Part shown: positions 1 through 5,395 of the stretch, piece after piece
How the letters are laid out: each line of letters opens with the position of its first letter
Position numbering within the stretch: position 1 is the first letter of the stretch
NCBI GenBank assembly: GCA_946481275.1
Contig: CAMLMV010000102.1
Span: 1-5,398, forward strand
Origin: an uncultured Massilia sp.
Lineage (GTDB): Bacteria; Pseudomonadota; Gammaproteobacteria; Burkholderiales; Burkholderiaceae
DNA: 5,398 nt
Direction: 5' to 3'
Notes under the pieces: generated by a model
Seen by the model: the letters and a program-made list of their open reading frames with translations, nothing else
What the model was told of the DNA's origin: nothing
The model's database searches: none
Position numbers and translations under genes: made by a program

Positions 1-5
1 AGTTT
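1..5 (-). rRNA. rrs: 16S rRNA, extreme 5' end (partial, runs off the left edge)
   Basis: Read on the minus strand, the window ends in AAACT directly after a typical pre-16S leader. Mature 16S in E. coli begins AAATTGAAGAG, and related betaproteobacteria carry AAACTGAAGAG at this place, so these five bases are probably the first of the mature RNA. The assignment rests on the leader context and family knowledge. The gene body lies outside the window. Confidence 0.45.
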
Positions 6-16
6 AATCTCTGTTT

Positions 17-32
17 TGTCACTTTCGTGACA
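17..32 (-). other. Leader hairpin with GNRA tetraloop
   Basis: The minus-strand RNA reads UGUCAC-GAAA-GUGACA, a perfect 6-bp stem closed by a GAAA (GNRA) tetraloop. It sits about 11 nt before the presumed 16S 5' end. It could guide 5' end maturation or leader folding; the function is inferred. Confidence 0.7.
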
Positions 33-114
33 TGTCGCTCACTCAAAATACTGACCGTCACTCATTGCTGAGCAACGTATTTCTTTTGCGTGAACATTTG
101 ATAATTTAAGCATT

Positions 115-138
115 CAGCAGCCACTTACGCGACTGCTG
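115..138 (-). other. Leader hairpin CAGCAG/CTGCTG
   Basis: Inverted repeat with 6-bp perfect arms (115-120 and 133-138) and a 12-nt loop inside the rRNA leader, just downstream of the boxC-like element in the transcript. It is probably a structural element of the pre-16S leader. Confidence 0.6.
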
Positions 139-173
139 GCACTTCATCAAACGCCCACACTTATCGACTGTTT

Positions 174-186
174 ATTGTTAAAGAGC
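174..186 (-). promoter_or_regulatory. rRNA antitermination boxA
   Basis: The minus strand reads GCTCTTTAACAAT, matching the E. coli rrn boxA core TGCTCTTTAACAA almost exactly. In rrn operons this RNA site binds NusB-S10 and starts assembly of the antitermination complex. Its place about 60 nt after the proximal promoter, followed by a GTGTGGGC element about 15 nt downstream, is the standard arrangement. Confidence 0.93.
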
Positions 187-205
187 TTCGTATTCGGTAC
201 TGCCT

Positions 206-238
206 TGCTGCGCTTGCGAATCGTTTTGTTCGTCAGCA
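206..238 (-). other. boxB-like stem-loop upstream of boxA
   Basis: In the minus-strand RNA, UGCUG (238-234) pairs with CAGCA (210-206) and CGAA (232-229) pairs with UUCG (220-217). The two helices are separated by an asymmetric internal loop, and the apical loop is 8 nt. It lies about 20 nt before boxA, where rrn leaders carry the boxB hairpin. The assignment rests on position and pairing only. Confidence 0.5.
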
Positions 239-251
239 GCAGAGAAGTGAG

Positions 252-280
252 ATTATGCAGTAGTTCGCCTAACTCGTCAA
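252..280 (-). promoter_or_regulatory. Proximal rrn promoter (P2)
   Basis: On the minus strand there is a -35 TTGACG (280-275), a 17-nt spacer and a -10 CATAAT (257-252), a near-consensus sigma-70 promoter. Transcription would start near 245-248. It lies at the expected distance before boxA. The sequence just upstream of the -35 is not an A/T-rich UP element; instead the 3' arm of an inverted repeat (289-296) lies there. Confidence 0.9.
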
Positions 281-288
281 CCCCTCGT

Positions 289-339
289 CTGTTTTGTCGC
301 GCCGTCGTTACCGACTGATTTTCATGCGCTGCAAAACAG
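289..339 (-). repeat. Nested inverted repeat between the tandem rrn promoters
   Basis: Perfect 8-bp arms CTGTTTTG/CAAAACAG (289-296, 332-339) are followed inward by a 2-nt mismatch and four more pairs, GCGC/GCGC (299-302, 326-329). Nested inside is a second hairpin (304-315) whose minus-strand RNA reads GUCG-GUAA-CGAC, again closed by a GNRA tetraloop. It is transcribed only from the distal promoter and ends just before the proximal -35. No U-tract follows, so it is not a standard intrinsic terminator. It could be a structured RNA, a protein-binding site or a processing site. Confidence 0.7.
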
Positions 340-346
340 GACGCGA

Positions 347-376
347 ACTATAGCAAAGGCTAGCCCCAATGCGCAA
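347..376 (-). promoter_or_regulatory. Distal rrn promoter (P1)
   Basis: On the minus strand there is a -35 TTGCGC (376-371), an 18-nt spacer and a -10 TATAGT (352-347). The -35 begins only 4 bases after the ampC stop codon. Tandem promoters are usual for rrn operons, and this one would produce a leader that includes the inverted repeat at 289-339. It is weaker by consensus than the proximal promoter. Confidence 0.6.
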
Positions 377-380
377 GGGG

Positions 381-1523
381 TTACGGCGCCAACTGTCCAA
401 GAATCGAATACGCCGCCTCCACCCTCGCTGCGTTCGGGTAATTTTTATTGGCCAGCATGACGATCCCGACGCGCCGTTCCGGCACGAACAGTACATACGC
501 ACCAAATCCGCGCGTCGCGCCCGTCTTGTTGAAAAGCGTCCCACGCGGCGCGGCCTGGGACGGCTCCAGCCGGACAGCCGGATTCGGCTCGGCGCTCATC
601 TTCGTGGAATTCCCCGCCTGTAGTGCAGCCAGCGTCACGGGCGCGCGGTACTGCTCCCATCCGAGCCCTTGCACGGTATCGCCGATGCGGAAGTAACCCG
701 TATGCGTGCAATCGATGGCGCGCCGCATCGGGTCCGGCAAGCCGGTGGCGTCGATATTCAGCTGGACGAAGCGGATGATGTCGGCCGCGCTGGCTTTCAC
801 GCCGTACGCCTCCGCGTCAAACGGCCCGGGACTGACGCGCACCGGCCGGTTGGCCTTGTCGTAACCCCAGGCATAGTCGCCCATTGCACCGGCAGGCACG
901 CGGATATGGCTGTGCTTCAGTCCCAGCGCGGGGAACAGCCGGCCTTCGACGGCATCGGCAAACCCTATGCCCAGCGCCCGGGCCGTCACATGCCCGAACA
1001 GGCCGAGACTGGGATTCGAATACCGGCGCAACGTGCCGGGTGCGGCGTCCGGCTGCCAGGCGCGGAAGTATGCGATCGTCTGGGCCTCCGTTTCGACGTC
1101 GTCGGGGAACTGCAGCGGCAGCCCGCCCGGCGTATAGGTGCCCAGTTCGAGCACGCTCGCACGGTCGATCGCGCTGCCCTTCAGCTGCGGGACATATTGG
1201 CCGGGGTGGTCGGCGAACGACAGCTTGCCGAGGCCCTGCGCGTAACAGGCCAACGTCGCCGTGATGGTCTTGCTGACGGAACCCAGTTCGAACAACGTGT
1301 TCTCCGTGACGGGCTTGTGCTCCTGCTTCGACGCCTCGCCGTAATTGAAGAACAGCGCCTGGCCGTCCACCGTGACGGCGACCGCCATGCCGGGCACGTC
1401 GTGCTGCGCCATCAGGGGCTGGATCGCGCGGTCGACGGCGGCGCGCACGGCGGTGGCGTCGACGGCGCCCGCCGTCAGCGGCAGCAACGACAGACATGCG
1501 ATGGCGATGGATTTTGTGGACAC
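381..1523 (-). CDS. ampC: Class C (AmpC-type) serine beta-lactamase
   Basis: Periplasmic serine hydrolase predicted to open beta-lactam rings through an acyl-enzyme. With the GTG start chosen here the product is 380 aa (E. coli AmpC is 377). A signal peptide (about residues 1-20, STKS then a hydrophobic core) ends near TAGA|VDA. The class C motifs are complete: SVSK (nucleophile Ser82, Lys85), YSN (Tyr168, Asn170) and KTG (333-335). Their spacing of 86 and 251 residues is identical to E. coli Ser64/Tyr150/Lys315. Equivalents of Gln120, Tyr221, Asn343 and Asn346 are also present, and the C-terminal GIVMLANKNYPN block is conserved. The GTG at 1523 is preferred because GGAG lies 6 nt upstream and it gives a clean signal peptide; starts at 1544 (ATG) and 1577 (GTG) lack a ribosome site and place DPEN before the hydrophobic stretch. 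No ampR lies beside it. Substrate range cannot be read from sequence. Confidence 0.96.
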   Translation of the reverse strand: MSTKSIAIACLSLLPLTAGAVDATAVRAAVDRAIQPLMAQHDVPGMAVAVTVDGQALFFNYGEASKQEHKPVTENTLFELGSVSKTITATLACYAQGLGKLSFADHPGQYVPQLKGSAIDRASVLELGTYTPGGLPLQFPDDVETEAQTIAYFRAWQPDAAPGTLRRYSNPSLGLFGHVTARALGIGFADAVEGRLFPALGLKHSHIRVPAGAMGDYAWGYDKANRPVRVSPGPFDAEAYGVKASAADIIRFVQLNIDATGLPDPMRRAIDCTHTGYFRIGDTVQGLGWEQYRAPVTLAALQAGNSTKMSAEPNPAVRLEPSQAAPRGTLFNKTGATRGFGAYVLFVPERRVGIVMLANKNYPNAARVEAAYSILGQLAP

Positions 1524-1529
1524 AGCGTT

Positions 1530-1533
1530 CTCC
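1530..1533 (-). promoter_or_regulatory. Ribosome binding site deciding the ampC start
   Basis: GGAG on the minus strand ends 6 nt before the GTG at 1523-1521. Neither upstream in-frame start (1544, 1577) has such a site; the 1544 ATG is preceded by CTCCTC. Confidence 0.7.
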
Positions 1534-1554
1534 GGATCGTTCATGAGGAGCACC

Positions 1555-1560
1555 AGTATA
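1555..1560 (-). promoter_or_regulatory. Possible -10 element of ampC
   Basis: TATACT on the minus strand, about 32 nt before the GTG start, would place the transcript start near 1548. No good -35 is visible at 16-18 nt (GTCGGC at 17 nt). The promoter is therefore either weak or activator-dependent, or ampC is read mainly through from the regulator gene. Confidence 0.4.
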
Positions 1561-1575
1561 GGCAGGGACCTATAC
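1556..1575. repeat. Perfect interrupted palindrome over the ampC -10
   Basis: GTATAGG-N6-CCTATAC, 7-bp perfect arms with a 6-bp centre, overlaps five of the six bases of the putative ampC -10 hexamer. The size and symmetry fit a dimeric regulator operator. No known consensus was recognised, so the binding protein is unknown. Confidence 0.65.
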
Positions 1576-1594
1576 ACGCCGACAGCGCGGCCAT

Positions 1595-1608
1595 CCCGGC
1601 AAACCGGG
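1595..1608 (-). other. Short hairpin between response regulator and ampC
   Basis: The minus-strand RNA reads CCCGG-UUUG-CCGGG, a 5-bp GC stem starting 6 nt after the regulator stop codon. There is no following U-run, so it is unlikely to be an efficient terminator. It may stabilise or partly attenuate read-through into ampC. Confidence 0.4.
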
Positions 1609-1614
1609 CGTTCG

Positions 1615-2370
1615 TCACATTGCCGACTTCAGCGCGCCCAGGTAACGCTCGCTGACGGCGACCGTCGCGCCGCAACGCAGCGTGAGCCGGTAGCTGCCGT
1701 CGCCGACGGAATCCAGGCGCGCGATCTCGCCGCGCCTGACGATCGCGCCGCGGTGCACGCGCAGGAAGTCCTCGGGCGCGAGCAGGGTCTCGAGACGGTT
1801 GAGGGTGATGCGATGCAGGACCGTGCGCCCGGCCAGGTGCAGCTCGACGTAGTTCCCGGCCGATTCGATCCACAGGATGTCGGCCACGCGAATCTGCTCG
1901 ATACGGCCGACGGAACGCACGTTGATCCGCTCCAGCCGGGCCGCCGTCTGGCCGGCGTCGACGTAATCGCGCAGCGCCGCGCCATAGGCTTCGCGCTGCC
2001 GCTGCCCCAGCATCGCGCCGATGCGCTCGACCGCCTGGGCCAGGCGCGCATCGTTGAGGGGCTTGAGCAGGTAGTCGAGTGCGTGCACCTCGAATGCGTC
2101 GATCGCGTGTTCGCTGTAGGCCGTCACGAACACGATGAGCGGCGGCGCGCTCGCGCGGCTGATCTCGCGCGCGAGCACGAGGCCCGATTCGGCCGGCATC
2201 TGGATGTCGAGGAAGATGACGTCGACGTCCTGTGCGGCCAGCACCGCGCGCGCGGCCGCGGTGCCGTCGCATTCGGCGACGAGCCGCCAGTCCGGATGCG
2301 CGGCCAGGGCCAGGCGCAGGTTCGAACGGCTGGGCAGCTCGTCGTCGACGATCAGGTAGCGCACCGGCAT
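1615..2370 (-). CDS. LytTR-family response regulator
   Basis: Cytoplasmic DNA-binding regulator of 251 aa, the usual size for AlgR/LytR-type proteins. The receiver domain (about 3-117) shows the acidic pocket D9-D10, phosphoacceptor Asp55 in FLDIQMP, Thr83 in FVTAY and Lys103 in YLLKP. After a short linker, a LytTR DNA-binding domain occupies about 149-250, with the typical ILWIESAGNYVELH, FLRVHRGAIV and VAVSERY blocks. The ATG at 2370 lies 2 bases after the kinase stop (TGA-AC-ATG). A GGGAG site (2380-2376) sits within the kinase's last codons, so the two are translationally coupled. LytTR proteins bind pairs of about 9-bp direct repeats roughly 21 bp apart; such a pair lies upstream of the kinase (3519-3548). 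Its target genes are not known from sequence; the flanking beta-lactamases are an inferred possibility. Confidence 0.95.
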   Translation of the reverse strand: MPVRYLIVDDELPSRSNLRLALAAHPDWRLVAECDGTAAARAVLAAQDVDVIFLDIQMPAESGLVLAREISRASAPPLIVFVTAYSEHAIDAFEVHALDYLLKPLNDARLAQAVERIGAMLGQRQREAYGAALRDYVDAGQTAARLERINVRSVGRIEQIRVADILWIESAGNYVELHLAGRTVLHRITLNRLETLLAPEDFLRVHRGAIVRRGEIARLDSVGDGSYRLTLRCGATVAVSERYLGALKSAM

Positions 2371-2372
2371 GT

Positions 2373-3479
2373 TCACTCCCGCGCCAGAGGCAGGCGGACT
2401 TGGGCCACGAAGCGGCCGTCCTGCAGATTCGTGCGCAGCGACGCGGTGGGATGCATGAGGCGCAGCCGTTCGCGCGTGTTTGCGAGGCCGAGTCCCGCGC
2501 CGGGATTGGGCGACGCCTGCGCGAGCGCGGGATTCGTCACGCGGATCGTGAGCGCCGCGCCATCGGATACGAAGGACAGGCGAATATCGCTTGGCCCGTT
2601 GTGGCAATCGAGATCGTGGCGCAACGCATTCTCGATGAGCGGCTGCAGCAGCAGCGGCGGACAATCGACGTCGTGCAGCAGCGCGTCGTCGCCATCGATG
2701 CGGACCTGCAGCCGGTCGCCGTAGCGCAGGCGCTGCAGGTCGAGGTAGTCGCGCACGAACTGCAGTTCGTCCGCCACGGTCGCCGTGTTGCGCACGCTGG
2801 CCGACAGCGCATAGCGCAGCAGGTCGCTCAGGCGGCCGATGCCGCCCAGGGCCAGGGTGCGGTCGCCCTCGCGCACGAGCGCGCTGATCGCGTTCAGCGC
2901 ATTGAACAGGAAGTGCGGTTCGAACTGCGCGCGCAGGGCCAGCATGCGCTGCTCTTCCAGCGCGAGGCGCAGGTTCAGCATGTCGGTCTGGCTGCGCTGC
3001 CACGCCAACTCGCGCTCGCGCGCCTGCCGCCAGTAGTGGACCGCGAGGATGGCGGCGAACGTGCCCGTCGTTGAGAACCAGCCGACCAGCAGCATTTTCA
3101 TCAGCAGCCGGCGCGCGTCGTCGATGCTCGCGATGTGCAGGTAGCCGCGCAGCCACGCCATGTACGTCCACTGCGCGGGCTGGAACACGAGCACGAGGCC
3201 CACGAACAGCAGGAACACGTTGCGCGGACGGGCAATCAATCCGGGCCAGCGCGCCAGTGCGATGCTCAGGCCCGCGCTCAGGACGATCAGCGGCACGGCG
3301 TACTCGATGAACCACGTCACCAGCAGCGACGGATAGTGGCTGTCCACGCCGAGGCGTAGATTGTCGCTGTAGGTCTGCAGGGCGCCCAGGGTGCTGATCG
3401 CCGTCCACAACAGCACGACGATGGCGATGGTTCGTACCGCGGGCGGTGTCGATGGCGGGGAAATGGCGTGCTGCGTCAT
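2373..3479 (-). CDS. LytS/YehU-type membrane sensor histidine kinase
   Basis: Inner-membrane kinase of 368 aa that should phosphorylate the regulator encoded next to it. Four hydrophobic segments (about 16-34, 52-75, 86-106 and 127-149) form the N-terminal half. A short coiled region leads to a PF06580-type His kinase domain with FEPHFLFNALN (phosphoacceptor His189). The ATP-binding N-box is LLQPLIENALRH (Asn284) and the G-box GAGLGLANTRERL (about 327-339). No PAS, GAF or large periplasmic domain is seen, so the input is probably sensed within or at the membrane. The ATG at 3479 was chosen because the hydrophobic segment follows directly. The frame stays open to an ATG at 3590, but that would add an Arg-rich tail and cover the repeat-rich intergenic region. 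No ribosome site precedes 3479; a TATACT hexamer 7 nt upstream suggests a leaderless transcript. Confidence 0.93.
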   Translation of the reverse strand: MTQHAISPPSTPPAVRTIAIVVLLWTAISTLGALQTYSDNLRLGVDSHYPSLLVTWFIEYAVPLIVLSAGLSIALARWPGLIARPRNVFLLFVGLVLVFQPAQWTYMAWLRGYLHIASIDDARRLLMKMLLVGWFSTTGTFAAILAVHYWRQARERELAWQRSQTDMLNLRLALEEQRMLALRAQFEPHFLFNALNAISALVREGDRTLALGGIGRLSDLLRYALSASVRNTATVADELQFVRDYLDLQRLRYGDRLQVRIDGDDALLHDVDCPPLLLQPLIENALRHDLDCHNGPSDIRLSFVSDGAALTIRVTNPALAQASPNPGAGLGLANTRERLRLMHPTASLRTNLQDGRFVAQVRLPLARE

Positions 3480-3485
3480 CGGGGA

Positions 3486-3491
3486 AGTATA
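3486..3491 (-). promoter_or_regulatory. Possible -10 of the kinase-regulator operon
   Basis: TATACT on the minus strand, separated from the ATG by TCCCCG. Initiation 7 nt downstream would fall on the A of the start codon, giving a leaderless mRNA. The -35 position (about 3509-3514) is GC-only and poor, as expected for an activator-dependent promoter. Repeats that could bind an activator begin at -40 (3519). Confidence 0.4.
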
Positions 3492-3516
3492 GCCTGCCGC
3501 CGGGCCGCGGCCGGCC

Positions 3517-3534
3517 GCTTCGTCACGTCGAAGC
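3517..3534. repeat. Dyad GCTTCG-N6-CGAAGC
   Basis: Perfect 6-bp arms with a 6-bp centre (TCACGT), overlapping the first copy of the TTCGTCACG direct repeat. It is a possible operator in the divergent intergenic region, about 40-55 bp upstream of the kinase start. Confidence 0.55.
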
Positions 3535-3548
3535 GGCGTTTCGTCACG
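3519..3548. promoter_or_regulatory. Candidate LytTR-type operator (two 9-bp direct repeats)
   Basis: TTCGTCACG occurs at 3519-3527 and again at 3540-3548: identical 9-mers with a 12-bp spacer, 21 bp start to start, two helical turns. This is the layout LytTR-domain regulators recognise (two about 9-bp direct repeats 12-13 bp apart). From the kinase side the copies read CGTGACGAA, centred near -44 and -65 from the start codon. The repeat is seen; binding by the adjacent regulator is inferred. The 7-bp core CGTCACG also occurs by chance in coding sequence, so the spacing and identity carry the argument. Confidence 0.55.
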
Positions 3549-3569
3549 GCGGCGTGTCCGTCGTGACGA
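3541..3569. repeat. Inverted repeat TCGTCACG / CGTGACGA
   Basis: Perfect 8-bp arms (3541-3548 and 3562-3569) with a 13-bp spacer. The left arm is shared with the second direct repeat. The right arm is a third copy of the same motif in opposite orientation, 20-21 bp away centre to centre, pointing toward the metallo-beta-lactamase whose ATG is about 50 bp downstream. Confidence 0.6.
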
Positions 3570-3571
3570 CA

Positions 3572-3589
3572 TGGCCGCAGAATCGGCCA
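3572..3589. repeat. Dyad TGGCCG-N6-CGGCCA
   Basis: Perfect 6-bp arms with a 6-bp centre, 31 bp before the metallo-beta-lactamase start codon. It may be an operator near that gene's promoter. No convincing -35/-10 pair could be found for the gene; a TTTATC at 3599-3604 is the nearest -10-like sequence and is poor. Confidence 0.4.
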
Positions 3590-3620
3590 CGCATCCTCTT
3601 TATCAACTCTCCAGCGAACC

Positions 3621-4469
3621 ATGAAAAACACGATACGCCTGGCCGCCGCGCTCCTGCTCGGCGGCGTCTCCGCTTCCACTGTCGCCGGCATGACGGAGTG
3701 GCTCGCGCCGCAGGATCCGTTCCCCGTCTACGGCAACACGTACTACGTCGGCACGCACGGCATCGGCGCCGTGCTGATCACGTCGCCGGCAGGCCACATC
3801 CTCATCGATGGCGGCCCGCCTGGCGCGGCCGACCAGATCGCGGCGCACATCCGCGCGCTCGGCTTCAAGGTCGAAGACATCCGCTACATCCTGAATGGCC
3901 ACGATCACTTCGACCACGCGGGCGGCATCGCGGCACTGCAAAAGATGAGCGGCGCCACGGTGCTGGGCAGTCCGGCTTCCGTCGCCGTGCTGAAGTCGGG
4001 CCAGCCGGACAAGCGGGACCCGCAATATCCCAACCTGATCCCGATGACACCCGTCGCCAACACGCGCGCCGTACGCGATGGCGAAGTGGTGACGCTCGGA
4101 CCGCTCGCCGTCACGGCGCGCTTCACGCCGGGGCACACGCCGGGTGCCACCAGTTGGACGTGGCAATCGACCGAGGGCGGCAAGACGATGCGCGTGGTGT
4201 ACGCGGACAGCGTTACCGCCATCGCCGCCGACGGCCGCAGTTTCAGCAGGAATCCGCTGTATCCGACGGCGCGGGCGGACGTCGAGCGTTCGATCGCCAC
4301 GATCGAAGGACTCGAATGCGACGTGCTCGTGAGTGCGCATCCGGATTTCAGCGATGTATGGGAGCGGAAAGCGCGCGGGACGTTGGTCGATCGCGGCGCA
4401 TGCCGCAAGTACGCGGAGGCCGGGCGGGCATGGCTGGCGAAGACGCTGGCGGCGGAAGAGCAACCATGA
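3621..4469 (+). CDS. bla: Subclass B3 metallo-beta-lactamase
   Basis: Exported zinc hydrolase of 282 aa, predicted to attack beta-lactams, typically including carbapenems for this subclass. A signal peptide (MKNTIR then a hydrophobic core) ends near residue 20. The zinc ligands are HDHFDH (His94, His96, Asp98, His99), His172 in GHTPGATSWTW and His240 in LVSAHP. YADS (Ser197) matches the B3 Ser221 position. No cysteine ligand occurs, which excludes B1/B2. Cys233 and Cys261 correspond to the disulfide pair seen in L1 from Stenotrophomonas. Related B3 enzymes are known from Janthinobacterium (THIN-B). The ATG at 3621 gives a normal export signal, but no clear ribosome site precedes it. The gene is first of a two-gene operon and divergent from the sensor kinase. 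A generic MBL-fold hydrolase is less likely because the B3-specific motifs are complete; activity is untested. Confidence 0.94.
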   Translation: MKNTIRLAAALLLGGVSASTVAGMTEWLAPQDPFPVYGNTYYVGTHGIGAVLITSPAGHILIDGGPPGAADQIAAHIRALGFKVEDIRYILNGHDHFDHAGGIAALQKMSGATVLGSPASVAVLKSGQPDKRDPQYPNLIPMTPVANTRAVRDGEVVTLGPLAVTARFTPGHTPGATSWTWQSTEGGKTMRVVYADSVTAIAADGRSFSRNPLYPTARADVERSIATIEGLECDVLVSAHPDFSDVWERKARGTLVDRGACRKYAEAGRAWLAKTLAAEEQP

Positions 4470-5353
4470 CGGTGATCCGCAAGCTGCTGTTGGCGTGCTG
4501 CTTCGTGTCCAGCCTGGCCTCGGCCGCGACACCTTATGTGCTCGACGACACGGAAGTGCGCGACGTGCGCGCGGCCGCGCTGAACCGCGACTACCAGGTG
4601 TTCGTCGCGCTGCCGGATTCGTATCGTTCGTCGAACCGGCGGTATCCGGTGCTGTTCGTCGTCGACGCGAATTACGCCTTCCCGGTCGCGCGCGGCATCG
4701 CCCAGCGGCTGGCCAAGCATGCGGGCATGGAAGAGGTCATCGTCGTCGGCCTCTCGTATGCGAAGGGCGACAGTCCCGTGTACAGCCGGCGCCGCGACTA
4801 CACGCCGTCGATGCCCCGCGGCCAGTATGCCTCCGATATGCCGGGACGCAGCGCCGCGTTCGGCGAGGCGCAGGCCTACGGCCGCTTCATCGCGGCCGAC
4901 GTGTTCCCGCTGATCTCGGCGAACTACCGGGCCGACATGAGCCGCAAGATCTTTGCCGGCCATTCCTATGGCAGCCTGCTCGGCCTGCAAATGCTGCTGA
5001 GCGAACCGGCCACGTTCGACCACTACATCCTCGGCAGTCCATCGCTGTGGTTCGACCAGGGCGTGATGTTCGACCGCGAACAGGCGTATGCAAAGGGACA
5101 CAAGGATATCCCGGCGTCCGTGTTCTTCGGTATCGGCGGCCGTGAAACGCTGGCCAGGGACCGGAAGCGGTCACGGTCGGAAGAGAATGCGGACATGGTC
5201 GCGGATGTATGCGACTTCGACGCGGCGCTGAAATCGCACCGTTATCCGAACCTGAAAATCCGGCTCGAAGTGTTTGCGGACGAGGATCATGCCAGCGTTT
5301 TTCCGCTGGTGCTGACCCACGGGTTGCGGGCGTATCTGAAGAAGGTGAAGTAG
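4466..5353 (+). CDS. Exported alpha/beta-hydrolase, putative esterase (PF00756-like)
   Basis: Secreted or periplasmic serine esterase of 295 aa. A signal peptide (MTVIRK, hydrophobic core, cleavage near SLASA|ATP) is followed by an alpha/beta-hydrolase core. Visible are DYQVFVALPDSY and YPVLFVVDANYAF near the start, the nucleophile elbow GHSYG (Ser167), the family block GSPSLWFDQG (190-199) and the catalytic His275 in EDHASVFP. The third, acidic triad residue was not assigned. This layout resembles the esterase D/Fes-IroE group, whose members cleave esters such as siderophore lactones; the real substrate is unknown. The ATG overlaps the metallo-beta-lactamase stop by 4 bases (ATGA), with a purine-rich GGAAGAG site in its end, so the two are co-translated. 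LLAC at residues 8-11 resembles a lipobox, but the preceding hydrophobic stretch is too short for a lipoprotein. Confidence 0.88.
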   Translation: MTVIRKLLLACCFVSSLASAATPYVLDDTEVRDVRAAALNRDYQVFVALPDSYRSSNRRYPVLFVVDANYAFPVARGIAQRLAKHAGMEEVIVVGLSYAKGDSPVYSRRRDYTPSMPRGQYASDMPGRSAAFGEAQAYGRFIAADVFPLISANYRADMSRKIFAGHSYGSLLGLQMLLSEPATFDHYILGSPSLWFDQGVMFDREQAYAKGHKDIPASVFFGIGGRETLARDRKRSRSEENADMVADVCDFDAALKSHRYPNLKIRLEVFADEDHASVFPLVLTHGLRAYLKKVK

Positions 5354-5359
5354 AAAGCA

Positions 5360-5395
5360 AAAAGCCCGCTCAGTGCATACTGAGCGGGCTTTTCT
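5360..5395 (+). terminator. Strong intrinsic terminator, probably bidirectional
   Basis: Perfect 15-bp stem (5360-5374 with 5379-5393), a GCAT loop, a GC-rich middle and TTTTCT at the 3' side. It begins 7 bases after the esterase stop. The matching A-run on the left lets it act on the minus strand too, so a convergent gene may end just beyond the window. Confidence 0.95.

Follow-up and report, generated by a model that had tools for sequence, protein, structure and literature searches.

The stretch of DNA analysed here, referred to as the window, comprises 5,398 nucleotides from an uncultured Massilia sp. (contig CAMLMV010000102.1) and contains five genes, in which a two-component system (TCS) lies between two unrelated beta-lactamases. 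Three genes are on the minus strand: a class C beta-lactamase gene (ampC, 381..1523), a LytTR response regulator (RR, 1615..2370) and a LytS/AlgZ-type histidine kinase (HK, 2373..3479). The plus strand carries a subclass B3 metallo-beta-lactamase (MBL, 3621..4469), which is divergent from the HK, and an esterase (4466..5353) that overlaps the MBL stop codon via ATGA. We consider here the predicted control of both beta-lactamases by the TCS.

The class C, LytTR, kinase and B3 assignments made in a preliminary description of this DNA are firm. The ampC product scores 524 bits against the NCBIfam equivalog model NF033085 (cut-off 415) and also matches PF00144. Its open reading frame (ORF) extends to 1577, but the GTG at 1523 is the more likely start, given the -10-like TATACT at 1560-1555 and the GGAG immediately 5′ of this GTG. 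The MBL scores 317.7 bits against the B3 equivalog model NF033105 (cut-off 240), and its closest solved structures are MEM-A1 and SMB-1-type enzymes (6e0s, 3vpe). The RR combines PF00072 (Response_reg) with PF04397 (LytTR), and its nearest NCBIfam model is BtsR, at 151 bits and thus under that model's cut-off of 246. The HK carries the His_kinase domain PF06580, and several of its relatives are named AlgZ in JGI annotation. Since hydropathy gives it about four membrane helices and two short loops, it offers no sensor domain from which to deduce the signal. With a receiver-LytTR regulator and a PF06580 partner kinase the TCS is of the LytS/LytTR type, and the LytTR output domain sets it apart from the OmpR-family (BesRS, BlrAB) type. 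The preliminary inventory was right about these four genes, including the divergent B3 enzyme, but it missed the esterase, as well as rRNA operons on both sides. The esterase (PF00756; 2qm0, 6guo, 2gzr) is an IroE/BES-like alpha/beta hydrolase, and its possible kinship with siderophore esterases is a matter of sequence similarity (E 1.3e-18 with 2qm0). No divergent LysR-type gene (AmpR) was found beside the window's ampC, whose neighbours are the RR and an rRNA leader, just as the preliminary description had held, and none of the five genes matched BlaI-BlaR1 (PF03965; PF05569 and PF00905) in Pfam.

The repeats that had been noticed earlier are real, and can be described as two predicted operators. 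Operator 1, TTCGTCAC-N13-TTCGTCAC (3519..3547, plus strand), lies between the divergent HK and MBL promoters, within a direct repeat region at 3516-3551, and was found as a conserved block in the HK-MBL gap when 10 loci were aligned. Operator 2, GCCATCCC-N13-TTCGTCAC (1590..1618, plus strand), is a more degenerate copy that overlaps the RR stop codon. The consensus, TTCRTCMC-N13-TTCRTCAC, has 8-nt cores, a 13-nt spacer and a 21-bp period, and so fits the architecture of LytTR sites, which typically consist of two 9-11 nt repeats that are 11-13 nt apart (PMC4847170). Each of the three promoters has a -10-like element: CAGAAT for the MBL (3578..3583, plus strand), 30 bp from operator 1; TATACT for ampC (1555..1560, minus strand), 29 bp from operator 2; and TATACT for HK-RR (3486..3491, minus strand), six bases 5′ of the HK ATG, where GTATAG is conserved in the 10-locus alignment.

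To place this arrangement, 392 genomes of the same family, taken from a larger group, were surveyed; an HK match (E<=1e-50) was found in 107, AmpC (1e-60) in 130 and MBL (1e-40) in 168. Neighbourhoods were read for 74 HK loci and the window, from 71 of the 107 HK genomes, with the remaining 36 (all with distant HKs) left out. Here L numbers denote locus rows and G numbers genomes; the rows are related, so that counts do not represent independent events. The rows divide into 36 close ones including the window (HK 70-100% identical), which form one clade in the tree (support 100/100), and 39 distant ones (HK 39-57%). Among the close rows AmpC adjoins the TCS in 22, MBL in 16 and both in 14, and the esterase is on the divergent side in 19. 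The order AmpC-RR-HK<>MBL is therefore not confined to one strain, being present in the window and 13 other genomes. A scan of genome contigs for the MBL gave 19 loci, nine of which keep this order (L001-L008, L014; Massilia and Telluria), while L009-L013 have the MBL without AmpC, RR or HK neighbours and L015-L019 are remote. HK and AmpC distances correlate (r 0.95, 22 loci) as tightly as those of HK and RR (r 0.93). The 22 linked AmpCs fall on one side of the AmpC tree, although the fork is weak (74/95) and is located at the midpoint root. SxSK/Y[SA]N/K[TS]G catalytic motifs are intact in all 22 of these enzymes; HxHxDH is present in 16/16 TCS-linked MBLs, and the stricter second motif PGH[TS]..SAHPD in only 9/16.

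Operator 1 has no mismatches in the window, L001-L008 and L014. A scoring matrix was built from distant loci that have no adjacent beta-lactamases (33 of 39, the other six having no site at <=2 mismatches), and it gives 29.9 bits for operator 1 and 28.1 bits for operator 2, both outside the training set, compared with a 99.99% background point of -2.9 bits (2.27 million positions outside the two expected places). A site above 9 bits precedes the HK in 33 of 36 close rows and in 39/39 distant rows, although the matrix is in-sample for the 33 distant HK-upstream sites that trained it. Similar repeats lie between the HK and the divergent gene in most distant loci. The three close rows below 9 bits (L064, L079, L080) also have no adjacent RR; L065 has the site though its RR is not adjacent, the nearest RR relative being elsewhere in the genome. 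At the other end of the TCS, the RR/ampC site is present in 22/22 loci with an adjacent AmpC (16.7-34 bits), in only one of 10 close loci with an RR but no AmpC (L067, 13.3 bits), and in one of 38 distant loci with an RR (L086, in which a TonB receptor gene follows the RR and the repeat faces it). Promoter spacing is kept as well. On the divergent side the best -10 offset is 30 bp both in 33 close rows (3.67/6 matches; median of all offsets 1.02) and in the 39 distant rows (2.92/6; median 1.05), and for ampC the preferred offset is 29 bp (22 rows, mean 3.45/6 vs a median of 1.07). On the HK side the offset is mostly 38 bp, and is 27 in the window.

As a pattern, the repeat at <=1 mismatch occurs 37 times in 8 genomes, vs 4 times for the reversed pattern. 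G341 has two perfect matches and G384 has one, and in both genomes the cassette site is among them. Many of the <=1-mismatch copies are intragenic and low-scoring, but since some coding matches score 8-20 bits, single matches were used only with context. With this proviso, 40 loci with an unlinked MBL or AmpC were examined. Six of 19 unlinked MBLs in close genomes have an upstream site (14.5-34.8 bits), namely the MBL of G356 and those from each of the five genomes in the clade that has PBP4 and/or a TonB receptor beside the TCS. For all six, a hexamer (TCAACT, TCCACT or TACAAT) lies at a gap of 30, the best of the offsets tried. The six belong to two MBL lineages, the five forming a B3 lineage separate from that of the window. 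No site was found upstream of unlinked MBLs in distant-TCS genomes (0/12) or where the genome lacks any TCS match at E<=1e-50 (0/6), nor at the AmpCs of G288, G305 and G364 or the four AmpCs beside MBLs in L167-L170. Altogether, 30 of the 36 close rows have at least one site-bearing beta-lactamase. This enzyme is AmpC in 22 of them, an MBL that is adjacent but without AmpC in two (L059, L061) and an unlinked MBL in the other six.

The comparison thus shows a recurrent gene order, repeats, fixed spacing and, in several rearrangements, a repeat that has stayed with its gene. From these sequence features we propose that a single LytS/LytTR TCS directly controls both of its flanking beta-lactamases, and we assign this reading a probability of roughly 0.78; the comparison strongly supports predicted direct control, which would act in cis and, in certain species, also in trans. 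In the proposed mechanism, the membrane kinase would phosphorylate the RR, which would then bind the two half-sites of the direct repeat with its 21-bp period. Operator 1 would serve the divergent HK-RR and MBL-esterase promoters, and operator 2 would serve ampC. Since the operators are at a fixed 29-30 bp from a -10-like element, the RR would most likely activate rather than repress. The expected result is coordinated output of the class C enzyme, the zinc B3 enzyme and the esterase, together with autoregulation.

Several observations weigh against this proposal. The other 13 of the 19 unlinked close MBLs have no site (<=4.4 bits), and six of the 36 close rows have no site-bearing beta-lactamase at all (L064, L067, L068, L072, L079, L080). 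L067 retains its 13.3-bit RR-end site without an AmpC, and in L073 and L067 strong HK-side sites stand where no target is recognised. Five of the six unlinked sites score 14.5-23.7 bits, and intragenic repeat-like matches reach 14.7 and 19.6 bits (L127, L140). Intragenic matches of 14-20 bits mean that single scores are not unique genome-wide, and so the weaker unlinked sites lean on their kept spacing and conservation. Finally, operator 2 is opposite to operator 1 in orientation relative to transcription, and its promoter-side half-site is degenerate in 22/22 loci, so that control of ampC could differ in sign or strength.

The divergent slot that is occupied by the MBL in the window holds other genes elsewhere, which were called by a codon-GC score; choosing the longest ORF gave wrong frames in this GC-rich DNA. 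Slot genes include the MBL, the esterase (the divergent neighbour in seven loci without an MBL), PBP4 (Peptidase_S13; L074-L077), TonB receptors (Pfam for L020 and L078, BLAST cluster for the others) and acyltransferases (Acyl_transf_3; L084, L087, L088 and L096 by Pfam, and four by cluster). Because one promoter slot is used by all of these, the TCS is older and wider than beta-lactam resistance. The idea of a dedicated resistance-control module is supported, in that the order does recur and that both beta-lactamase promoters have TCS repeats, which in several cases are with the gene where it is located elsewhere; it needs widening, as the slot also serves the esterase and the other cargo genes. 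Sites above 12 bits that are not in either of the expected places number only 6 in ~2.4 million positions. Four of them precede TonB receptor genes (L064, L079 and L080 by Pfam; L097 by tblastn, ~1 kb away). In L105 the gene after the site encodes a 2Fe-2S oxidoreductase, a kind of gene that also adjoins the TCS in L106, and in L110 it is a DUF5916 gene. In L064, L079 and L080 the site is just after the HK, with TATACT kept as at ampC. These three loci have a crown-type kinase without an adjacent RR, followed by the operator and the TonB receptor gene, and an internal stop interrupts the kinase of L080.

By its predicted products the slot cargo points to the cell envelope. Given that close relatives hold a PBP4-type carboxypeptidase (DacB) in the place of the MBL, the most likely stimulus would be a cell-envelope or peptidoglycan disturbance. 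Alternatively, the TCS might sense a nutrient or siderophore-like molecule, and the beta-lactamases would guard against accompanying compounds, such as siderophore-linked beta-lactams, rather than against envelope damage. TonB receptors are the commonest slot genes of the distant loci, and the window's esterase resembles the IroE/BES siderophore esterases, but PBP4 and acyltransferases occupy the slot too, and IroE-like folds act on many esters; we regard this alternative as unlikely, though it is the best of those considered. Returning to direct control by an envelope-responsive TCS, a broader and still tentative generalization, which we doubt somewhat more than we trust, is that the LytTR operator acts as a socket. 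A fixed module (the 21-bp direct repeat, ~30 bp and a -10 element) would sit at the TCS or at a gene elsewhere, and its cargo would change in the course of evolution, taking the form of a TonB receptor, an acyltransferase, PBP4, the esterase, a class C enzyme or a B3 enzyme of either of two separate lineages. In the Massilia crown this would amount to a two-enzyme, two-threshold response, with two strong half-sites for the zinc enzyme and one degenerate half-site for AmpC.

Some further variations in gene content were seen. The esterase of L063 and L069 is beyond AmpC on the same strand, and so is linked outside the divergent slot too. In L005 (4413-7367) and L006 (4238-7192) a 984-aa protein gene, convergent with the MBL, takes the place of the esterase; that of L005 encodes a two-component-regulator propeller and GGDEF (Pfam). 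L073 has a 281-aa Lactamase_B-superfamily protein (7778-8620), not B3 by any test, whose gene converges on the HK; a 33-bit site separates the two.

It might also be supposed that the TCS controls only the MBL-esterase unit and itself, the RR/ampC repeat being weak or autoregulatory and ampC constitutive or otherwise controlled. The degenerate half-site and the inversion of the direct repeat relative to ampC would suit this explanation, but the near absence of RR-end sites where there is no AmpC (1/10 and 1/38), the kept TATACT spacing at ampC, and the similar site with TATACT before the TonB receptor genes of L064, L079 and L080 make it quite improbable.

As for the surroundings of the five genes, the window is the complete spacer between two rRNA operons. 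On the left, the leader and promoter region of an rRNA operon occupies 1..356 on the minus strand, its 16S gene starting just past base 1; window positions 1-356/380 match the DNA preceding both 16S genes of L055 (93-94%; 16S placed by Rfam). On the right, an inverted repeat at 5363..5393 marks a hairpin terminator, which separates the esterase from the 5S end of the other operon, and the window's right end matches 5S-adjoining DNA of L005, L007, L055 and L056. In L055, L056 and L058 the cassette takes up the interval between two rRNA operons that run the same way, and it is between rRNA operons in G341, G384, G360 and several short contigs; a 5S gene is found at the right end of L005 and L007, and a 16S start at the left of L004. 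This location accounts for the lone ~5 kb contigs, which may drop out of genome bins. A plasmid origin was rejected, there being no near match among 72,556 plasmid records.

Passive linkage, in which a rarely rearranged rRNA-operon spacer holds the genes together while control by the TCS extends to the esterase and to the system's own promoter but to neither beta-lactamase, would account for these locations and for the esterase's place beside the TCS in loci without an MBL, but it is very improbable given that AmpC-RR-HK also occurs without a 16S start motif in the examined DNA of L060, L062, L063, L066, L069-L071 and L073 (L060 also by Rfam), that the ampC-side site accompanies AmpC in every linked locus, and that six unlinked MBLs have the site at the same promoter spacing.

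Regulated beta-lactamase expression in the AmpR-ampC, CreBC, BlrAB and VbrKR systems proceeds via LysR or OmpR-family regulators, unlike the LytTR regulator predicted to act here. The BesRS-penL system of Burkholderia thailandensis (PMC9426598) is similar in that a TCS governs a beta-lactamase and reacts when the envelope is disturbed, but its RR is described as resembling RstA/OmpR and its enzyme is of class A, whereas here a LytTR RR is flanked by two enzyme classes; the word LytTR is absent from the main text of that paper. AlgZR of Pseudomonas aeruginosa is of the LytTR type, with an AlgR core, CCGTTCGTC, that resembles CGTTCGTCAC here, and one AlgR site, algD-RB3, is oriented opposite to the others (PMC4064291). 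It differs in its targets, for which the passages naming them in that paper give alginate, pilus and rhamnolipid genes and no beta-lactamase. Among the E. coli systems YpdAB and BtsSR, the LytTR RR likewise binds a tandem repeat (PMC4847170), but BtsSR responds to pyruvate by activating a transporter gene (PMC10653868), and a beta-lactamase is not known to be involved. LytTR control of a beta-lactamase was not found in titles and abstract openings among the matches listed, which leave the subscription literature mostly uncovered; within the literature searched, this would be the first LytTR-controlled beta-lactamase regulon.

A second and unrelated type of local regulator adjoins the same enzymes in this group. 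The gene order BlaI-BlaR1-MBL-AmpC is present in L167-L170 (G150, G123, G193, G171), and of 20 further AmpC loci (L185-L204), eight have BlaI-BlaR1 in front of AmpC (L189, L193, L195-L198, L201, L204). In L010 and L179-L181, BlaI-BlaR1 precedes the MBL alone. Pfam identifies BlaI (PF03965) and BlaR1 (PF05569, PF00905) in L169 and BlaR1 in L164, and the rest are tblastn relatives. The earlier expectation that B3 genes usually have no recognised local regulator thus does not hold for these bacteria. As with the TCS, a local regulator stands beside class C and B3 genes, sometimes with both in one row, but BlaI-BlaR1 consists of a repressor and an M56/transpeptidase sensor and is not in the window. 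Class C and B3 genes therefore adjoin two unrelated regulators, a LytTR TCS or BlaI-BlaR1, within one bacterial group. To our knowledge, control of metallo-beta-lactamases in Oxalobacteraceae has been little studied, and the present analysis offers a candidate regulator, with defined predicted operators, that would act jointly on a serine and a zinc beta-lactamase in Massilia-related soil bacteria. The family has been cited as one from which acquired metallo-beta-lactamases may stem, and BlaR1-like genes beside class C-D fusions have been published for it (PMC5967600). In L164-L166, PBP4-like (DacB) and BlaR1 genes are near an unlinked AmpC, with no BlaI match.

Other repeats were encountered during the site searches. 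A recurring TTCATCCCGC..TTCGTCGC site has the look of another family of sites, possibly belonging to a paralogous TCS, and plays no part in the argument above. A second repeat family, TTCRTCCCGCNTTTNNNGCNNTTCGTCGC, has 51 matches at <=2 mismatches vs 0 for the reversed pattern, and occurs in 23 of 35 close genomes. G001-G006 have one such match ~0.6 kb from a paralogous kinase. In L116, L136 and L142 a TACAGT follows a TTCRTCCCGCNTTTNNNGCNNTTCGTCGC-family repeat at a gap of 30, and in L116 and L136 the repeat is followed by a short, exported-looking ORF of 63-66 codons.

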